From positions 62,001 through 126,000 of the forward strand of contig NZ_JADEYR010000006.1 in the NCBI RefSeq assembly GCF_015209585.1: a stretch of DNA of 64,000 bases, in the 5' to 3' direction. The notes under the pieces were generated by a model. It searched no databases and was not told where the DNA came from. It was given only the letters and a program-made list of their open reading frames with translations. The stretch comes from Brachybacterium epidermidis (GTDB lineage Bacteria; Actinomycetota; Actinomycetes; Actinomycetales; Dermabacteraceae). Shown piece by piece: positions 39,089 to 50,227 of this stretch. The translations under genes were made by a program, and so were the position numbers. How positions within the stretch are numbered: the stretch's first letter is position 1; every line of letters starts with the position of its first letter.

Positions 39089-40050
39089 GGCTCTTCAAGG
39101 TTCGTGGTGAAGGAGAGCGTCGCGTCGCTGGCGTAGAACGGCCCGTGGTCCTGCTGTGATGGGTGTTGTCTAGACATCCACATCCCAGAGGACCACGAGC
39201 CTGTGCACGAGAATGCTGGTTCGCAACGAGATGCTGCGAGCACGATCTTCAACCTGCCCGACTACCGCGTCATCGACGCGATCGACCTGCCCGATGGTGG
39301 CCGGCGGGTGGTGGTCGCCTCGACCCTCCCGCCTGGATGTCCGTCGTGCGGGTGCTCGCGACCAAGGTCCACTCCCGCCGGTCCCAGAAGGTGCGCGACG
39401 TCCCCGTGGCCGGGGCGGTGGAGGTGGTGTGGGCCAAGCGGCGCTGGTTCTGCCTCGAGCTGGTCTGCGCCCGGCGCACGTTCTGGGAAGCCACCGATCA
39501 GGTCCCTTACCGTGCGCGTTCGACGACCCGGCTGCGGGATCAGGTCGTCTCCGCGGTGCTCACCTCGGGCCGGGCTGCCTCCGAGGTCGCCCGGGCCCAT
39601 GGCGTCTCGTGGTGGCTGGTCCAGTCCGCGCTGGCGGCGGCCGCAGTGGTCCTCCCCGCCGCCGAGGACGTGCGAGTGACGCGCCTGGGCATCGATGAGC
39701 ACCGCTACCGGTCGGTGCGCTGGTTCCGCACCGATGAAGGTGCCTGGAGACGGTTCGAGCCATGGATGACGACCCTGGTCGACCTGACCACCGGACAGGT
39801 CCTCGGCGTCGTCGACGGCCGGGACTCCACCGCCGTCGGTGACTGGCTTGCCCAGCGCTCTGAGGACTGGCGGGAGCGGATCGAGATCGTCGCGATCGAT
39901 CCCTCGGCCGCGTTCCGCAAAGCACTGCGGACCTACCTGCCCCGCGCTGCGGTCTCGGTCGACAAGTTCCACCTCGTCAAGCTCGGGAACGACATGGTCA
40001 CCGCCGTGCGGCAACGCCTGGCCCGCGCTCACCACGGTCGTCGGGACCGG
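39089..40050 (+). mobile_element. ISL3-family element: left end and broken, 3'-truncated transposase
   Basis: The left terminal repeat starts GGCTCTTCAAGGTTCGTGG. The transposase (GTG 39203) has the N-terminal zinc motif CPSCG, then a frameshift near 39,349 (one G short of GGGG), then VHSRRSQKVRDVPVAG, RRWFCLELVCARRTFWE, the helix-turn-helix region, and the DDE core GIDEHRYRS, TTLVDLTTGQVLGVVDGRD, VAIDPSAAFRKALR and SVDKFHLVKLGNDM. Identity to an ISL3 protein stops about 40,050, where unrelated DNA starts; no right end. Non-functional. Its last 26 bp are repeated at 42249. Confidence 0.85.
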
Positions 40051-40135
40051 CGGCCTGCCGCGGTATACCTTCCTGTTAGGCCCGTACCGACATTCGGCGG
40101 TGAACTGCGAGGCAGCACTCACGAGGAGACGCGCT

Positions 40136-40396
40136 GTGTATCGGGACGTGCCGACTGAGATCGCTGAGATCAAGCGCAAGGCGCGAGTGGTGGCTGTGGT
40201 GGGAGTCCTCATAGGTGGCGTGTTGCCTGGTCTACTCGGGATCGCTGCGATGTCCACTGCCGAGACCAACCCCTACCGTGCCGAGAAGTTCACAGCCATA
40301 GCGTGGCTCATCATGATCGTCGGCTGGCTGACCTTCGCGGCGTTCCTGCTCATGGTGGCACTGGGGGTCATCACCGTCGAAGAGGGAACGCCCTAA
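40136..40396 (+). CDS. small two-span membrane protein (copy 1)
   Basis: An 86-residue protein with a GAGGAG site before GTG. A charged start (PTEIAEIKRKARV) is followed by span 1 (VVAVVGVLIGGVLPGLLGIAA), a loop, and span 2 (IAWLIMIVGWLTFAAFLLMV). No family recognised. The 17-bp cassette motif begins 3 bp after its stop. An identical gene is at 42360. Confidence 0.7.
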   Translation: MYRDVPTEIAEIKRKARVVAVVGVLIGGVLPGLLGIAAMSTAETNPYRAEKFTAIAWLIMIVGWLTFAAFLLMVALGVITVEEGTP

Positions 40397-40399
40397 CCG

Positions 40400-40416
40400 A
40401 CCGTACGTGGCACGGG
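40400..40416 (+). repeat. cassette-boundary motif a
   Basis: ACCGTACGTGGCACGGG, directly after the stop of the small membrane protein. Confidence 0.6.
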
Positions 40417-40497
40417 CTCTCGATCGCTGCTGGCTTGCGCGGACCACTGTCGCCCGCGAGCTCGCTGGGCACGCACCAAACAGGGGCACCCCAGCAA

Positions 40498-40592
40498 GAC
40501 AGTTACTAAGCGGTCATTTACGGTTACCAATAGGGTCCCGAGGTATACTTTTGCTACACATCTGTCGCACCAGGTATACCCCGGCGGGACAG
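40498..40592 (+). repeat. 95-bp dispersed element A
   Basis: Starts gacagttac, contains atctgtcgcaccaggtatac and ends ggcgggacag. Aligns without gaps and at roughly 70-75 percent by eye to 49968-50062, and is identical to 42722-42816. It contains a TATACT hexamer that could be a -10. Confidence 0.75.
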
Positions 40593-40639
40593 CTAGTCGG
40601 GGCCGCAACGAGCGGTCCGTAGCGCTCTGGCCGAGCGGG

Positions 40640-40831
40640 TCATAAGCCTTCAGTGCGAGGGGGATAAAGGCGGCAAGCGTTGGGTGGAGCACCTGGCTCT
40701 TCGTGATTGATCTGGTAGGTGCACTCGCTGCACTCGTACGTGTCCGGCCGCTCAGGCAAATGTTCGCTCCAGTCGTGACCGCATGCCTCGCACTGTTCCC
40801 TTGGGCGTCGCGCGCGCCATCTTCTCAGCAT
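40640..40831 (-). CDS. small zinc-ribbon-like protein (cassette gene)
   Basis: A 63-residue frame starting MLRRWRARRPREQ. Two CxxC pairs, CEACGHDWSEH and YECSECTYQINH, are 20 residues apart, the pattern of a small zinc ribbon. GACACT lies 6 nt before the ATG (leaderless type). Single gene between motifs a and c. Confidence 0.55.
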   Translation of the reverse strand: MLRRWRARRPREQCEACGHDWSEHLPERPDTYECSECTYQINHEEPGAPPNACRLYPPRTEGL

Positions 40832-40869
40832 GCTGGCAGTGTCCGATGGCGGTCTCCGCGTTGCAACCG

Positions 40870-40886
40870 ACTGTTTGTGACACGCC
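40870..40886 (+). repeat. cassette-boundary motif c
   Basis: ACTGTTTGTGACACGCC, 38 bp upstream of the start of the minus-strand zinc-ribbon gene. Confidence 0.6.
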
Positions 40887-40966
40887 ACCTCGGAGGTCAC
40901 GAGTAGACGCTCAGAGAGCGCAGGAAGTTGCCATACTGGCGGGAGGATCAGCACAGAGGAGGCCGC

Positions 40967-41629
40967 GTGGTGGGGAGGCTCCTGGGCCGCTTCGGCGACA
41001 TTCTGGGCTCCGTCGTCGCGGCAATCCTTCAGCTAGCCCTGACTATCGTCATCGGCCCGATCGTCCTGCTGCTCATCGGCACTGACGCCGCGCTCTCGAT
41101 CGCGAGGCGCGAACCGAGGATCACGTTGCCCTCGTCGGGTGTTGACCTCGGGGCCGCCGATGACGGTCAGGTGGATCTGACTCGCGTGGCGGACGCTATT
41201 ACTTCTCGATGCAAGATCGAGGTCACCACCGTGCGGCCGGCGCCCGGTGAGATCGAGCTGTCCTCGGACGTGACGGTCGGTCTGCCCGCCGCTATCGGGG
41301 TCATCGCTGACCTCGACGGCGAAGACTGCATCGAGGTGTCCATCGGCCTGTGGGGCGAACACGGCGTCGAAGGGCACGACGAGTGGCGCAGTGATGTCGC
41401 CGTCGCCTTGGTCGCTGCATACCTCGACTACGGCATCACGTGCCGAGTGGTCAAGGGGCACACCCTCGGGTTCTTGTGGCTCGATGATGCCGGGGTTTGG
41501 TGGTGCGTACGCCCGGAAGGCGAATCGACGTTCCATCAAACCCGGTTCCGCGATCTCCCTGGCAGGCCCGCGAGTACCACAGAAAGAGCGCAGTGGCTCG
41601 CTCTCATGCGGTCCTCGCAGTCCAACTAG
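40967..41629 (+). CDS. membrane-anchored hypothetical protein (cassette gene)
   Basis: A 220-residue protein with a strong site (GAGGAGG) before GTG. One long hydrophobic segment (VVAAILQLALTIVIGPIVLLL) near residues 13-36, then a soluble domain with mixed alpha/beta features (RCKIEVTTVRPAPGEIELS, GVWWCVRPEGES). No family recognised. It is the only gene between motifs c and d; CATACT at about 40,931 may be its -10. Confidence 0.7.
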   Translation: MVGRLLGRFGDILGSVVAAILQLALTIVIGPIVLLLIGTDAALSIARREPRITLPSSGVDLGAADDGQVDLTRVADAITSRCKIEVTTVRPAPGEIELSSDVTVGLPAAIGVIADLDGEDCIEVSIGLWGEHGVEGHDEWRSDVAVALVAAYLDYGITCRVVKGHTLGFLWLDDAGVWWCVRPEGESTFHQTRFRDLPGRPASTTERAQWLALMRSSQSN

Positions 41630-41689
41630 TCGACGAACGCAGGCCCCGAGGCCCTCCGTGTGCGGGCGCTCATCGCCATTTCACAACCG

Positions 41690-41706
41690 ACCGTTTATGG
41701 CTCGCG
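41690..41706 (+). repeat. cassette-boundary motif d
   Basis: ACCGTTTATGGCTCGCG, 60 bp after the stop of the 40967 gene. Confidence 0.6.
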
Positions 41707-41720
41707 CCTGTCAGCGCACT

Positions 41721-42194
41721 TCATACGTCTTCCGGGAGACCGGTTGGGGAGTCTGGGTCGTACCCCCCGCGTGTGAACCACCCTCCTGCCCTCTCGGCCA
41801 GCAACGGCGGCAGCCAGTTGATGGAGAGGGGTTCGCACCACGCCAGCACCTCGGGGAGCGTCAACCCGATCTGGGTCCACGACCGGTCGAGCTCTTCAGA
41901 GACCGCGTCGGGAGCGCTCGTCGGGGAGTAGATGTCGATGTCGAAGCCGCCATCAGGTGGTGGGCTCGCGGGTTCGCCGCGGAGGCGCTGGAGAAGGGTC
42001 CTTTCTGGGGTTCCTCCCCAGTGCGTCACGAGGACATCGTGGCCCTGGGCGAAGCCGGAGGTAGCCCGTCCTGCGAAGGCTCTGCATCCCGCATCGATTG
42101 CCCGCTGCGACGGCCCCCAGGGTCCGTCTGGATTCTCGGCCGTGAACTGAGCAAGTCTCTGCTCCTGCTCACGCAACCACTTCCTCGCTCTCAT
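41721..42194 (-). CDS. hypothetical protein (cassette gene)
   Basis: A 157-residue soluble protein. Recognisable stretches are WLREQEQRLAQFTAENPDG, QGHDVLVTHWGGTPERTLL and FDIDIYSPTSAPDAVSEEL. No family recognised. Opposite orientation to its neighbours and the only gene between motifs d and e, with motif e 39 bp before its start. Confidence 0.65.
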   Translation of the reverse strand: MRARKWLREQEQRLAQFTAENPDGPWGPSQRAIDAGCRAFAGRATSGFAQGHDVLVTHWGGTPERTLLQRLRGEPASPPPDGGFDIDIYSPTSAPDAVSEELDRSWTQIGLTLPEVLAWCEPLSINWLPPLLAERAGGWFTRGGYDPDSPTGLPEDV

Positions 42195-42233
42195 CCTCCG
42201 ACGATAGCCGTCTTCTGCGCTGCCCCGGAGGGG

Positions 42234-42250
42234 ACCGTTTATGGCCCGGC
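42234..42250 (+). repeat. cassette-boundary motif e, at the left junction of repeat copy 2
   Basis: ACCGTTTATGGCCCGGC. The 568-bp repeat starts at 42249 inside this motif; the shared TGGCCCG is also present at the copy 1 junction in the ISL3 remnant. Confidence 0.65.
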
Positions 42251-42359
42251 GCTCACCACGGTCGTCGGGACCGGCGGCCTGCCGCGGTATACCTTCCTGT
42301 TAGGCCCGTACCGACATTCGGCGGTGAACTGCGAGGCAGCACTCACGAGGAGACGCGCT

Positions 42360-42620
42360 GTGTATCGGGACGTGCCGACTGAGATCGCTGAGATCAAGCG
42401 CAAGGCGCGAGTGGTGGCTGTGGTGGGAGTCCTCATAGGTGGCGTGTTGCCTGGTCTACTCGGGATCGCTGCGATGTCCACTGCCGAGACCAACCCCTAC
42501 CGTGCCGAGAAGTTCACAGCCATAGCGTGGCTCATCATGATCGTCGGCTGGCTGACCTTCGCGGCGTTCCTGCTCATGGTGGCACTGGGGGTCATCACCG
42601 TCGAAGAGGGAACGCCCTAA
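42360..42620 (+). CDS. small two-span membrane protein (copy 2)
   Basis: Identical 86-residue product to the gene at 40136, with the same GAGGAG site and GTG start, and again followed directly by the 17-bp motif. The exact duplication indicates a recent event. Confidence 0.7.
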   Translation: MYRDVPTEIAEIKRKARVVAVVGVLIGGVLPGLLGIAAMSTAETNPYRAEKFTAIAWLIMIVGWLTFAAFLLMVALGVITVEEGTP

Positions 42621-42623
42621 CCG

Positions 42624-42640
42624 ACCGTACGTGGCACGGG
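42624..42640 (+). repeat. cassette-boundary motif f
   Basis: ACCGTACGTGGCACGGG, duplicate of motif a. Confidence 0.6.
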
Positions 42641-42721
42641 CTCTCGATCGCTGCTGGCTTGCGCGGACCACTGTCGCCCGCGAGCTCGCTGGGCACGCAC
42701 CAAACAGGGGCACCCCAGCAA

Positions 42722-42816
42722 GACAGTTACTAAGCGGTCATTTACGGTTACCAATAGGGTCCCGAGGTATACTTTTGCTACACATCTGTCGCACCAGGTA
42801 TACCCCGGCGGGACAG
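42722..42816 (+). repeat. 95-bp dispersed element B
   Basis: Identical to element A as part of the 568-bp repeat; ends 35 bp before the P-loop gene. Confidence 0.75.
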
Positions 42817-42839
42817 TCGCTCTCCGAGCGTTCGCCCCT

Positions 42840-42845
42840 TAACAT
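42840..42845 (+). promoter_or_regulatory. -10 element of the P-loop cassette gene
   Basis: TAACAT lies 6 nt before ATG 42852, a leaderless-type arrangement carried within the cassette. Confidence 0.45.
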
Positions 42846-42851
42846 CGTCGA

Positions 42852-43466
42852 ATGATCATCGCGGTTGAGGGTCCAAGTGCTGCCGGGAAGACGACCTGGT
42901 GTCGAAAGGCCGTGGACGAGTTCATCGGCGAGTACGTGCCGACAGGGGTTGAACCTGACGGGAGTGACCCGGAGCACCAAGCAAGGTACTGGACCGGGGT
43001 CAACGCAGATCGCTGGTCCCAGGCGATCGAGCTCGAGCACCGGGCGGGGTTGGCTGTGGGCGACAGCGATCCTCTCAAGCTGCACTACTCATGGTGCTTG
43101 GCGCGTATCGGTGCGGCTCCCATTTCGCGCTTCCTCCATGAGCTGGCCTCTGTACGTGAAGCGATGAGTCGGCGGCAGCTCGGGTTCGCTGACGCCATCC
43201 TGGTAACGCTCCCGAGCGAAGCGGTTCTGAGACGGCAGAAGGACGGCGACGCGACTCGCTCCCGGCGAACGTTCGAGCTGCACGCTCGGCTACGAGGCCC
43301 CCTCGAGCAGTGGTACCGATCGATGGATCGTCTACGTCCTGGCGCCGTCATCTGGGACCTTCAAGCCACAGCGGTCGGAGATCTATCCACAACGCTGCGG
43401 CCTGATCGCCGATACGACGTTGAGCTGCTCGATGCGCTCGTATTCGAGCTACCGCGGATTGGCTGA
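42852..43466 (+). CDS. P-loop kinase/ATPase-like protein (cassette gene)
   Basis: A 204-residue protein. Walker A is EGPSAAGKTTW at residues 6-16; the rest has the helix-rich pattern of small nucleoside- or AAA-type kinases (YWTGVNADRWSQAIELEHR, SRRTFELHARLRGPLEQWY with an RR pair that could be a lid). It may phosphorylate a small molecule; substrate unknown. Bounded by motifs f and g. Confidence 0.8.
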   Translation: MIIAVEGPSAAGKTTWCRKAVDEFIGEYVPTGVEPDGSDPEHQARYWTGVNADRWSQAIELEHRAGLAVGDSDPLKLHYSWCLARIGAAPISRFLHELASVREAMSRRQLGFADAILVTLPSEAVLRRQKDGDATRSRRTFELHARLRGPLEQWYRSMDRLRPGAVIWDLQATAVGDLSTTLRPDRRYDVELLDALVFELPRIG

Positions 43467-43471
43467 CCCCA

Positions 43472-43488
43472 ACCGTTTGTGACACGGG
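43472..43488 (+). repeat. cassette-boundary motif g
   Basis: ACCGTTTGTGACACGGG, 5 bp after the stop of the P-loop gene. Confidence 0.6.
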
Positions 43489-43524
43489 CGTTGCCGCTTG
43501 GCGGCCCGGCCCCTTCGTCTCGCT

Positions 43525-44085
43525 CTAGTTCGTTGACCAGCCCATTGGGAGTAAGTCGGGAAGGGGATCGCTGGGGAGCCTTCCGTAGGTCAGCACGTCG
43601 TGGCGCTCTCCGTCGATCAGGAACTTTTCACGTTCCGTGCCTTCATGGATGAATCCTGCGGCCCGTGCCACGGCGCCCGAAGCGGGGTTGTTCGCTCGAT
43701 GCCCTAGCTCCAAGCGCTCGAGGCCCCACCCGGCATCACTGACGGGTCCCAGCGCGGTAGTTGCGACGGTCGCTGCTGCCTGACTCGCAAGACCCCGACC
43801 ACGCCATGCTGCATGCAGCCAGTAGAAGAATCAGCCCGTACGGTTCTCCTGATCGACCGAGATCCCAACGAGGCCGATCATGGTGCCCTGCTTGGCGCCC
43901 AGCGCTGTACTCCGCCGCGCCCCGTCCCGCAGCCACTCGATGTAGGCGCGCGCTGAGTCGAGGTCTCGAACCGGCCCCTGCCTCGACATATCCGGCGCGG
44001 ACCGGAACGCGTCCAGGATGGCGGATGCGTCTTCGTCGCACACCGGGCGCAACTGAACGAGGGGCTCCTGCATCGCGTTCGTCAT
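43525..44085 (-). pseudogene. GNAT acetyltransferase interrupted by an in-frame TGA (cassette gene)
   Basis: One frame of 186 codons with a single internal stop. Before it: VQLRPVCDEDASAILDAFR to TMIGLVGISVDQENRTG. After it (43831-43833 TGA): FFYWLHAAWRGRGLASQAA (the acetyl-CoA loop RGRGLA) and RLELGHRANNPASGAVARAAG, the RimJ/RimL-type C-terminus, ending DLLPMGWSTN. A single TGG-to-TGA change (Trp) would explain it. Either a nonsense mutation, readthrough, or an error. Only gene between motifs g and h. Confidence 0.75.
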
Positions 44086-44131
44086 GCGTCCATTGTTGCT
44101 GCCGGGCGGTGGCTGGCCTGCGCCTTCACTG

Positions 44132-44148
44132 ACCGTTTACGGCACACC
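44132..44148 (+). repeat. cassette-boundary motif h
   Basis: ACCGTTTACGGCACACC, 46 bp beyond the start of the minus-strand GNAT gene. Confidence 0.6.
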
Positions 44149-44163
44149 TGCCTCCTGTGGCGT

Positions 44164-44169
44164 TAGCGT
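44164..44169 (+). promoter_or_regulatory. -10 element of the second GNAT cassette gene
   Basis: TAGCGT lies 6 nt before ATG 44176, leaderless type. Confidence 0.45.
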
Positions 44170-44175
44170 GAACGG

Positions 44176-44691
44176 ATGGACCTGGGAGTGACTGTTGAGC
44201 GGGGCGAGATCGCAGACGTGCCGGCGGCTCAGGCGCTCCTAGCGGAGGCCCGCCGCTGGTTGGCTGACCGGTCAATCGACCAGTGGCAAAACCCGGTGCC
44301 CGACCACGTCATTGAGGCGGACGCGCGCCGAGGCGGACTGTTCGTTGTCCGTGCGGACGATGGCCCCGCCGGAATGCTCGCGGTGGCTCACTCAGATGAG
44401 GACACCTGGGGTCCGGCATCGGCAAGCGCGCTCTACGTCCATCGGCTTGCCGTGGCTCACCGGTACCGAGGGGCACAGCTCGGCCCGAAGCTCCTTCGCT
44501 GGGCACGCGGTTACGCGTTCGATCGCGGGTTGACGTGGCTCCGCCTGGACTGCGCTGCTGACAATCCGGGGCTACGTCGCTTCTACGAGCGCGACGACTT
44601 CGCCTATGTCCGGGACGCGACCGTCCCGTCCCCGGATGGTCATCGAACCTTCCGCGTGAGTCTCTACCAACGTCCGGCTGAGGTGGGCTGA
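44176..44691 (+). CDS. GNAT-family N-acetyltransferase (cassette gene)
   Basis: A 171-residue GNAT enzyme. The acetyl-CoA-binding region is LYVHRLAVAHRYRGAQLGPKLLRWA (in parts, about residues 95-119), followed by LTWLRLDCAADNPGLRRFYER with the usual N and Y. Acetylates an amine on an unknown small molecule or protein; several aminoglycoside or antibiotic N-acetyltransferases have this shape but no specific match is claimed. The IS3 element is inserted 12 bp after its stop. Confidence 0.87.
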   Translation: MDLGVTVERGEIADVPAAQALLAEARRWLADRSIDQWQNPVPDHVIEADARRGGLFVVRADDGPAGMLAVAHSDEDTWGPASASALYVHRLAVAHRYRGAQLGPKLLRWARGYAFDRGLTWLRLDCAADNPGLRRFYERDDFAYVRDATVPSPDGHRTFRVSLYQRPAEVG

Positions 44692-44712
44692 GGCGGACCG
44701 GCGTGTCCCGCG

Positions 44713-45663
44713 TCAAGTAGTTGGCAGGATTTCCTTGGTTTTGAATGTCGGGGTGGTGGGGTCGGCCAGGCCCAGGTGCACCTCCTTGGGCCGGTTCCAT
44801 GAGATGGCCTCGTGGGGCCGGAGCTCGTTGTACTCGATCCGGTAGTCCTCGGCCCGCTCGGCGAGCACGATCGCGTCGTCAATCTCGTCCAGGTAGAGCC
44901 GTTCGTACTTCAGCGTGCCGAAGCCGCGTTCACGGGACCCGTTCTGCCCCGGGGTCTTCACTCGGGTGCGCACGTGGTGTAGCTCGGGGTGGGCGGCGAT
45001 GAAGGACTCGAAGCGGAAGGACCGGAACGGCCCGCCGTTGTCCGTCACGATGGTCACCACGGGCAACAGCTCACCGGTCTCGGGATCGACCGGGCAGGCC
45101 TCGACCAGCGGGTGACCGAACATGGCCTCGTAGTCGGCCAGGGCCAACTCGATCGCGTCGATCGCGTCGTGCTGGTTCCCGGTGGGCGAAACGTGGAAGG
45201 GGTGCTCGTACTTGGACCAGTAGTCCCGGCACCCGGCCAGCCGCCAGGCCCCTCCGGTGGTGGTCTCGAACTCGCTGAAGTCCAGCTGCCAGACTTGGTT
45301 CGGGCCTGAGGGCTCGGTGGCGAACGCGGCCTTGCGCCGCTCGGCCAGCTTCCGTCGCTCCCGTTGGTACTGCGCGGGCAGAATCAGCCCCTCGTCGCGC
45401 AGGATTCGCAGCACGGTCGCCTCGGAAACACCATGCCCGTCGTGGCGGACCATCGCCCAGATCTTCCGATGCCCCCACGCCGGATGGGCCAGCGCGTGCT
45501 TGACCACCAGTTCCCTGGCGGCCTGCCGTGCCGGTTGCGGCCACGGTCCCTTCACCGCCGTCCCGGTGCGGGCCTTGGCCTGCCAGCGGCGCCAGGTCCG
45601 CTCGGGCATGTCGAAGAGCTGGCAGAACCTCGCGGTCGACATGCCCGCTTCCACGCGGATCAC
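44713..45663 (-). CDS. IS3-family transposase OrfB (DDE integrase domain)
   Basis: A 316-residue product if translation starts at GTG 45663, which overlaps the OrfA stop (GTGA). Contains MSTARFCQLFDMPERTW, the HTH_21-like HPAWGHRKIWAMVR, and the rve core: VWQLDFSEFET (first D), VTIVTDNGGPF (second D) and GQNGSRERGFGTLK (E). The C-terminal YNELRPHEAISWNRP is typical. A -1 frameshift fusion with OrfA is an alternative to coupling. Confidence 0.92.
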   Translation of the reverse strand: MIRVEAGMSTARFCQLFDMPERTWRRWQAKARTGTAVKGPWPQPARQAARELVVKHALAHPAWGHRKIWAMVRHDGHGVSEATVLRILRDEGLILPAQYQRERRKLAERRKAAFATEPSGPNQVWQLDFSEFETTTGGAWRLAGCRDYWSKYEHPFHVSPTGNQHDAIDAIELALADYEAMFGHPLVEACPVDPETGELLPVVTIVTDNGGPFRSFRFESFIAAHPELHHVRTRVKTPGQNGSRERGFGTLKYERLYLDEIDDAIVLAERAEDYRIEYNELRPHEAISWNRPKEVHLGLADPTTPTFKTKEILPTT

Positions 45664-45977
45664 CTCGAGGTCCTCGAAGGGCCCAGCCGGCCCTCCGCGG
45701 ACTTCTTCCACACCCTGGCCTCCAGGTGTGCCTCGCCCAAGGCCTGGGTCAGCTCGGCGACCTCGGCCTCCAGCTGTTCCTCTCGGGAGGATGGTCCGGA
45801 CCTGCCGGCCACCAGGGCGGTCTTGCCGGCTTCCAGGAACTCGGCCTTCCACCGTCCGATGGACTGCTCACTGACTTTCTCCTTGCGTGCCGCTTCGGCG
45901 ATGGACATCTCGCCGGCCAGCACGCTCAGCACTATCCGGGTCTTCTTCTCCGCCGGAATCGAGGGTGGTCTACCCAT
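45660..45977 (-). CDS. IS3-family OrfA (helix-turn-helix)
   Basis: A 105-residue DNA-binding subunit. The HTH is EMSIAEAARKEKVSEQSIGRWK, followed by a leucine-zipper-like helix EEQLEAEVAELTQALGEAHLEA. Standard length and arrangement for IS3 OrfA. Confidence 0.92.
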   Translation of the reverse strand: MGRPPSIPAEKKTRIVLSVLAGEMSIAEAARKEKVSEQSIGRWKAEFLEAGKTALVAGRSGPSSREEQLEAEVAELTQALGEAHLEARVWKKSAEGRLGPSRTSR

Positions 45978-46051
45978 GTCTGACTCTCCTTCAGGACCTA
46001 CATAACGGCCCTGCCACTAAGTCTGACGCGCGACAGGCGCAACCACACCGG

Positions 46052-46068
46052 ACCGTTTACGGCACGGG
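46052..46068 (+). repeat. cassette-boundary motif i
   Basis: ACCGTTTACGGCACGGG. Separated from its gene (44176-44691) only by the IS3 insertion. Confidence 0.6.
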
Positions 46069-46079
46069 GACTGCTGCCC

Positions 46080-46240
46080 GCATTGGTGACACCTCAACCA
46101 CACACATCTGCCACATTGAGCACTACCCTGCGTGACAGCTACGGCACCGTAACTCTCCCCGTCACACAGGGTCCGAAACGGTCAATCTGACACAGATCTG
46201 CTCACTCGGGTATACCCAACGCGGGTGTGCCGCCTCAATG
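46080..46240 (-). repeat. dispersed element L, inverted relative to element C
   Basis: Its reverse complement aligns with 50041-50184: both have gggtatacccg, cagatctgt, gaccgtttcggaccctgtg-like core, gacgggga and agctgtcacgc, then ggttgagg. About 75 percent by eye. Together with element C it brackets the LysE, MFS, CGNR and VOC genes. Confidence 0.7.
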
Positions 46241-49874: not shown

Positions 49875-49967
49875 CCCCACTGGCCGCGCCACTGAGGACA
49901 AGGCGCCGGAAGCTCCACGCTGCTTCGGTGGCCTGACTTCGCTGTACGGATGGAAGGCACCTCAGCA

Positions 49968-50184
49968 AGACAGTTACGTGACCGTAGGTTCACGGTTCTC
50001 ACTAGGGCCCGAAGTTGCCCTTTTGTGACAGATCTGTCGCACTGGGTATACCCGCCGGCGCAGATCTGTCATGCAATGGCCGTTTCGGACCCTGTGGGAC
50101 GGGGAAGCCTACGGCCCCGCAGCTGTCACGCGGGGTGGTTCTCAAGGTGGCAGAGGTGTCTGGTTGAGGCGTCATCGACTCGTG
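49968..50184 (+). repeat. dispersed element C
   Basis: The left 95 bp (to 50062) match elements A and B; the right part (50041-50184) matches the inverse of element L. It is thus the most complete copy of the family. A reversed partial boundary motif (ACCGTACGTGCC on the minus strand) follows at 50214-50225. The 427-bp gap 49875-50301 holds only this element and the next hairpin. Confidence 0.7.
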
Positions 50185-50227
50185 CATCGGTCCCGGCAGC
50201 TTCGTCCTGGATTGGCACGTACGGTGA

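Follow-up and report, generated by a model that had tools for sequence, protein, structure and literature searches.

A Row of Single-Gene Units in Brachybacterium epidermidis, Possibly Joined at Crossover Sites of a Small Serine Recombinase

How might a bacterium collect small genes one at a time and keep them in a row? Integrons are the standard gene-cassette collectors, and they are based on one tyrosine recombinase family. In this paper, we describe a candidate for another way of doing it: a row of small genes at positions 40136-46068 of a 64,000-nucleotide stretch of the Brachybacterium epidermidis genome (the window, by which we mean that whole stretch; it belongs to contig C27 of a genome of 3.07 Mb), in which eight copies of a short motif, all in one orientation, mark the boundaries between successive genes. 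Judging from the sequence, we consider it rather probable that these are single-gene cassettes joined at isolated copies of a crossover site (site I), and that the recombinase using it is a small serine enzyme of the resolvase/invertase family.

Results

The initial annotation of this DNA had listed eight sites in one orientation, and all eight are there, on the + strand, at 40400, 40870, 41690, 42234, 42624, 43472, 44132 and 46052, which gives site-to-site spacings of 470, 820, 544, 390, 848, 660 and 1920 bp (the last includes an IS3-type insertion sequence, or IS, element). Scanning the window with up to three mismatches returns 8 matches; among 100 shuffles, the mean is 1.14, the maximum is 4, and none reaches 8. 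The independent sites number seven, because an exact 568-bp duplication (40025-40592 = 42249-42816, both copies on the + strand) makes the sites at 40400 and 42624 a single site copied. Across the genome, the 15-mer ACCGTTTRYGRCACG is found at 28 places with up to two mismatches, a background level, because a reversed-pattern control yields 16 + 14 matches at that setting (and 1 + 1 at up to one mismatch); at zero or one mismatch, it is found six times, and all six places lie inside the array. The random scatter that the annotation had named as fatal to its proposal is, thus, not what the genome holds.

What sort of site is this? Aligning 26 sites (25 of them distinct), drawn from nine loci in addition to the window, gives AC and then CGTTTRYGGCRCRG, a strongly conserved right arm, with a degenerate arm on the left that resembles its inverse. 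When the left arms are read outward against the right arm, 18 of the 25 exceed the 95th percentile of flanking DNA, 10 of the 25 exceed the 99th, and the mean score is -3.7, where the null mean is -23.0 (standard deviation, 8.2); the dyad is clearest at L151 18377, L076 9846, L137 4416 and L077 8890 (L and G numbers are our handles for loci and genomes). On this alignment, two inverted arms flank AC, and the motif is one of the two. In the window, the sites then occupy, all on the + strand, 40386-40415 (site 1; AC centre at 40400-40401, arms of ~14 bp, right arm off consensus, identical to site 5 through the duplication), 40856-40885 (site 2), 41676-41705 (site 3), 42220-42249 (site 4), 42610-42639 (site 5), 43458-43487 (site 6), 44118-44147 (site 7) and 46038-46067 (site 8). 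Left out of the alignment were matches that abut or resemble the ends of IS30-type elements (L075 9822, L083, two in L084/L150, L085 and L086), L082, L079 (the equivalent of window site 6), the homologue-linked L186/L198 and L195/L200, and single matches that are weak or isolated (L081 9850, L102, L134, L147, L148, L149, L154 and L205).

Does a recombinase belong to these sites? The annotation had seen no integrase in the window, and there are indeed 0; the genome's five PF00589 and two PF00239 matches are all on other contigs. The linked recombinase that it had hoped for is absent from the window and adjoins a site in a congener. In that genome, G033, a divergent serine recombinase gene, whose end appears altered relative to homologues, has a 19-bp motif core (L077 8890) 136-154 bp upstream of it, and two accessory subsites lie between the motif site and the gene. 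These subsites align with the region upstream of an intact homologue of 205 amino acids in G007, where subsites II and III are present and the contig starts before site I; in G031, all three subsites are found, with the motif site at the matching place and no intact recombinase gene directly after. Subsite II occurs exactly in 3 of the 38 genus genomes, at these three platforms, and among the fetched loci, exact copies occur only there; two more matches with two mismatches (G036 and G017), where there is neither a recombinase nor a motif site, look like chance. The G007 protein is, by its matches, a recombinase of the resolvase/invertase family: it matches PF00239 with 127.8 bits (cut-off, 23.3), a C-terminal HTH_7 with 22.9 bits (slightly below the cut-off of 23.8), and gamma-delta and Tn3 resolvases as well as DNA invertases in the PDB. 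Read from these alignments, the G033 layout is that of a resolvase res region, and the motif is its crossover site I.

Relatives of this recombinase extend the link. In a sample of 396 genomes of the order, homologues at E <= 1e-35 are found in 14, and beyond G033, strong motif matches stand upstream of two distant homologues from other families, one that is 52% identical (L186, AAACGACCGTTTGTGAC) and another that is 45% identical (L195, GCCACAGACGACCGTTTGTGGCG); upstream scores are lower (8-12) at L157, L160, L174 and L191, and other homologues have different sites, such as AACGATCGTTTTCGAGC in G392. Close to home, G032 has a homologue that is 94% identical, with one internal stop and a transposase-like gene just upstream, and the window's own genome has one close homologue, which lies away from the array, is 91% identical over residues 46-172, has lost its start and also adjoins a transposase-like gene.

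Similar rows of sites occur in congeners. On one 39-kb contig, G037 has eight same-orientation sites, of which L076 holds six and L152 the other two; by Pfam, its units include NUDIX and TetR-type genes, and by eye, there are also hypotheticals and one GntR-like gene. G024 has two sites plus one beside an IS, and next to its sites or between them are genes for a methyltransferase, a P-loop protein and a small protein. In G027, a pair of sites brackets a small gene, which adjoins a cytidine-deaminase-like gene (under model cut-offs). Gene order fixed in all relatives was, for the annotation, the other possible refutation; these congener rows carry quite different genes, and the order is partly kept in G012, the only one of the 38 genus genomes with close cassette sharing when the DNA of 40136-44700 is compared. 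There, identity is 97% over 1304 bp, a stretch that includes site 6, and the G012 gene of the GNAT family is cut thereafter. Within this match, the upstream copy of a repeat that we call A (described below) is ~79% identical, so that the same gene pair follows diverged A copies.

Junctions can be compared between genomes at site 8. Starting at AC and running rightward, G037 10685 and G127 9923 (from another family) are 86.9% identical over 137 bp; rightward of AC, window site 8 and G127 9923 are 78.1% identical over 137 bp, and the match of the window to G037 starts at 46066, the end of the right arm. The left flanks of the three sites are unrelated, agreeing at 5-6 of 16 positions.

How far does the motif reach beyond these genomes? 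The exact 17-mer occurs in 8 of the 396 genomes of the order sample, against 2 for the reversed control; four of the eight are among the 27 genomes of the genus and four among the 369 others. In a class sample, up to one mismatch, 78 of 394 genomes match, a level similar to the control, with no two matches on one contig closer than ~100 kb among the matches listed. In 198 genomes searched with up to one mismatch, single matches are at background among the matches listed. Close same-strand pairs, again among the matches listed, occur in G000, G024, G037 and G131; the G131 pairs are 2.2 kb apart on C5 and 5.6 kb apart on C20, and the GTTT core is absent from them. Plasmids searched with site 8/B (B being a second repeat, also described below) and with the G033 recombinase gave no match, and one exact match in viral contigs is taken as chance. 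As a separate observation, the ends of IS30-type elements lie directly beside motif right arms at L075 ~9822, L150 ~6734 and ~14347, L083 ~165 and L076 ~13190 (the last by eye), placed as if the elements targeted motif sites; the L075 element has HTH_38 and rve domains, and we take it to be of the family named IS30.

The name integron, which the annotation had used as a likeness, can be tested directly. In the 38 genus genomes, no protein passes the cut-off of the IntI model TIGR02249 (the best reaches ~82 bits against 265). The annotation had remarked that the motif does not fit the attC core GTTRRRY, and this stands; when 130 nucleotides around each of the seven distinct window sites were folded on both strands, there was no attC-type hairpin (z from -1.1 to 1.6). 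The distance from stop codon to AC centre is 3 bp for both copies of a two-span membrane protein gene, 5 bp for the P-loop gene and 60 bp for a membrane-anchored protein gene, and with stops 3-5 bp from the centre, there is no space for attC at the two-span copies or the P-loop gene. These results refute a canonical integron. By its sequence, the array is, therefore, not an integron in the two defining features tested, and yet, its anatomy is integron-like.

What do the units carry? Apart from the IS3-type insertion in interval 7, each of the seven intervals holds a single small gene, and the genes point in both directions, while the sites point in one. The one-gene-per-interval logic of the annotation survives with two amendments, the insertion being one and the zinc-ribbon open reading frame (ORF) of interval 1 the other, because that ORF is contained in the interval only when begun at an internal ATG (40640-40831, - strand; its Pfam match, C1_2, is under the cut-off). 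Interval 2 holds the membrane-anchored protein gene (40928-41629, +), which has no family match; interval 3 holds a hypothetical gene (41721-42194, -) with decayed homologous DNA in G012 and G008; interval 4 holds the second copy of the two-span gene (42360-42620, +), a second occurrence owed to the duplication, the first copy lying left of site 1 (40136-40396, +). The P-loop gene of interval 5 (42852-43466, +) has an AAA_33 match under the cut-off, and its DNA is similar to a Plantibacter chromosome over 42844-43467, which is the ORF; the similarity ends short of the site. In interval 6, the GNAT gene that had been called broken (43525-44085, -) has one in-frame stop, and in interval 7, a second GNAT gene (44176-44691, +; PF00583) is accompanied by the genes of the IS3-type element (44713-45977, -; orfA, 45660-45977, and orfB, 44713-45852, by Pfam). 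A shortened ISL3-type transposase gene (39163-40024, +) lies left of the array.

A second family of repeats, res-like in appearance, runs through the same region. Repeat A (~105-115 bp) lies on the + strand at 40476-40590 (core GTATAC at 40574) and at 42700-42814 (core at 42798); repeat B (~150 bp) lies on the + strand at 46069-46218 (core at 46210), starting directly after site 8; and at 49956-50192, A (+) and B (-) meet at a single core at 50046. Both repeats end in a GGGTATACCC-like core, whose right arm is loose, and the eight GTATAC in the window, several of them centres of this family's sites, all lie within 40.0-50.1 kb. A and B recur in many congeners, and A is also found in Corynebacterium and Winkia plasmids; in G033, the downstream B repeat is present without a motif site. 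At the four distinct Brachybacterium loci examined (L102, L178, L179 and L180; L140 and L142 repeat two of these), the core, once as GTGTAC, lies ~93-328 bp upstream of serine recombinase genes of the "RVSS"-start kind. Could A and B simply be promoters? For some cores, a gene of the same direction starts 38-93 bp on (for example, 38, 44, 48, 86 and 88 bp); many others are not so placed, and the repeats also stand head to head at one core. Because the promoter fit is partial, because of that head-to-head core and because cores lie upstream of "RVSS" recombinases, we read A and B as putative res sites of a second serine recombinase. Against this stands L097, in Corynebacterium, where no fitting core lies within 500 bp of the recombinase gene (at L099, the gene caller gave no gene). 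Elsewhere, at L146 6918-9911 in G127, a B repeat is truncated on the side facing a unit made of a resolvase and a Mu-type transposase, which may be a res-hunting transposon.

Some neighbours of the recombinases and their platforms deserve mention in their own right. A small cysteine-rich gene or similar frame follows the recombinase in G007 (L157 820-1179), G033 (L155 1129-1359), G032 (L156 2171-2491) and G000 (L158 897-1283); the G007 gene has no match in Pfam or NCBIfam. Beside platform sites, there are matches to anti-phage models (L077 9187-9963 and 10418-11338 in G033; L137 2345-4177 in G031), and the models matched near the platforms are a CAP12/Pycsar TIR effector, a ThsB-like TIR protein and AIPR/AbiU. 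In G392, from another family, two direct copies of its 30-bp site, 807 bp apart (L196 9009-9845), flank one small gene adjoining the recombinase, with similar-looking accessory sequence at both copies (by eye); in G409 (L211), a G392-like site adjoins a small gene and no recombinase. The G392 site is found in 2 of the 3 genomes of that genus, and among the five distant-homologue loci searched for their own sites (L196-L200), two direct copies are found only in G392.

Discussion

How could such a row be built? We suggest that a circular cassette bearing one site I would be joined by the recombinase to a resident site I. If the cuts were staggered by 2 bp at AC, each cassette would start with a right arm and finish with a left arm, and the nonpalindromic AC would fix the orientation of the sites while leaving that of the genes free. 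Because the array sites have no subsites II and III, this reaction would need to be laxer than classical resolution. And because the genome's close recombinase homologue is truncated and encoded away from the array, we call the array in the window an orphan, which would be mobile only in trans or be a relic. The site and its dyad, the platform, the sites linked to homologues and the further rows are all read from the sequence itself; cutting at AC, circular intermediates, tolerance of absent accessory sites and action in trans are steps that we infer. A more ambitious picture can be drawn, that of a "serine integron": gene capture convergent with that of integrons, in which a small resolvase-type recombinase would insert single-gene cassettes at isolated copies of site I. 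The res-type platform would sit next to the recombinase, other strains would have orphan arrays, the cargo would include anti-phage genes, and further exchange points would come from a second resolvase system. On that larger claim, taken whole, we would not quite bet.

Several observations weigh against the cassette reading. Neither recombination nor circles were observed, and although AC is present in 26 of the 26 aligned sites, it was partly imposed by the seed pattern. Clean gain or loss of one cassette was not seen among the genomes compared, one per species. The annotation's proposal of a cassette array on a different recombination system is the best fit and is supported in part. The order P-loop, site 6, GNAT is common to the window and G012; the identity between them switches at the end of the A site, neither at the A core nor at AC; and a decayed G012 copy (77% identical) still keeps three features collinear (gene 3, site 4 and the beginning of the two-span gene), which argues against free shuffling. 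The window holds 0 matches to subsite II at up to three mismatches. Close recombinase homologues in the genus are four, intact only in G007, whose contig starts before site I, and G037, G024, G027, G012 and G016 have motif sites and no close homologue. Finally, a strong upstream motif stands at only 3 of 29 distinct homologue loci (G033, L186 and L195), counting loci with a recognisable recombinase gene (L158, L159, L161, L164, L166, L169, L171, L172 and L188, where a simple gene caller called none, were left out, as was L182, a repeat of L157).

Could something less inventive have produced the row? The sites might be passengers, res-site fragments in a gene row built by IS elements, transposons and homologous recombination, with a recombinase that resolves only cointegrates or multimers. 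The IS elements and the 568-bp duplication in the region, the missing accessory subsites, the congener sites that also abut IS elements and the second res-like family in the same loci all suit that account, but seven independent sites of one orientation at successive single-gene boundaries, together with the similar row in G037, are hard to get by chance, and shared DNA begins at AC in three genomes; we think it unlikely. That the sites serve a tyrosine recombinase (of Xer/pdif-like modules, for example, or another unlinked integrase) is quite improbable: a site whose inverted arms differ in strength would suit tyrosine recombinases too, and all 38 genus genomes have them, but there is none on the contig of the window, the site and its accessory subsites precede a serine recombinase gene, and homologues elsewhere have similar sites.

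A recurring regulatory element (an operator, part of a promoter or a terminator) would be intergenic, as the sites are, and might sometimes adjoin a stop codon, as they do. It would not be expected to keep one orientation between genes that run both ways, there is no hairpin, and the site is a subsite of a res-like region, so that this is a very improbable explanation. The single-gene units and the recurring site would also follow from a canonical integron with divergent attC, which, given the IntI scores, the folding, the stops 3 and 5 bp ahead of the centre and the core that differs from GTTRRRY, is the hardest reading to credit.

If cassettes joined at site I are, indeed, the answer, what do they resemble? 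As with integrons and integrase-less cassette clusters as they are generally described, there are tandem single-gene units, each junction has a single site, arrays stand as orphans remote from a recombinase, and the small accessory genes are mixed; unlike integrons, there is a serine recombinase, no attC hairpin, a short site of the double-stranded type and genes in both orientations. Known res sites serve the resolution of cointegrates or multimers. The likeness to the Tn3/gamma-delta resolvase-res system lies in the recombinase family (by comparison of the proteins), in the three-subsite region upstream of the gene and in a crossover subsite with a 2-bp centre, whereas in the window, the gene boundaries have isolated copies of site I, with no subsites II and III beside them. 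Staphylococcal cassette chromosome elements with Ccr share a serine recombinase and serial tandem integration; unlike here, Ccr is a large recombinase acting on long elements, and the G007 protein is far below the Ccr cut-offs (CcrB, 33.8 bits; CcrC, 32.6 bits; cut-off, 900). In the pdif/Xer modules of Acinetobacter, accessory genes are likewise reported to be flanked by sites of a recombinase normally used for resolution (PMC6449649); there, XerC and XerD are tyrosine recombinases acting at dif-like sites, while here, the recombinase would be a serine one.

The open-licence literature on serine recombinases and cassettes gave us, among the papers listed, no account of such an array, which is weak evidence of novelty because the search was restricted to open-licence papers. 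The reading lends itself to direct tests, for which there are an intact recombinase and defined ~30-bp sites. If it is true, Actinobacteria would have convergently evolved a cassette array run by a small serine recombinase, and resolution systems would be recruitable for gene capture.

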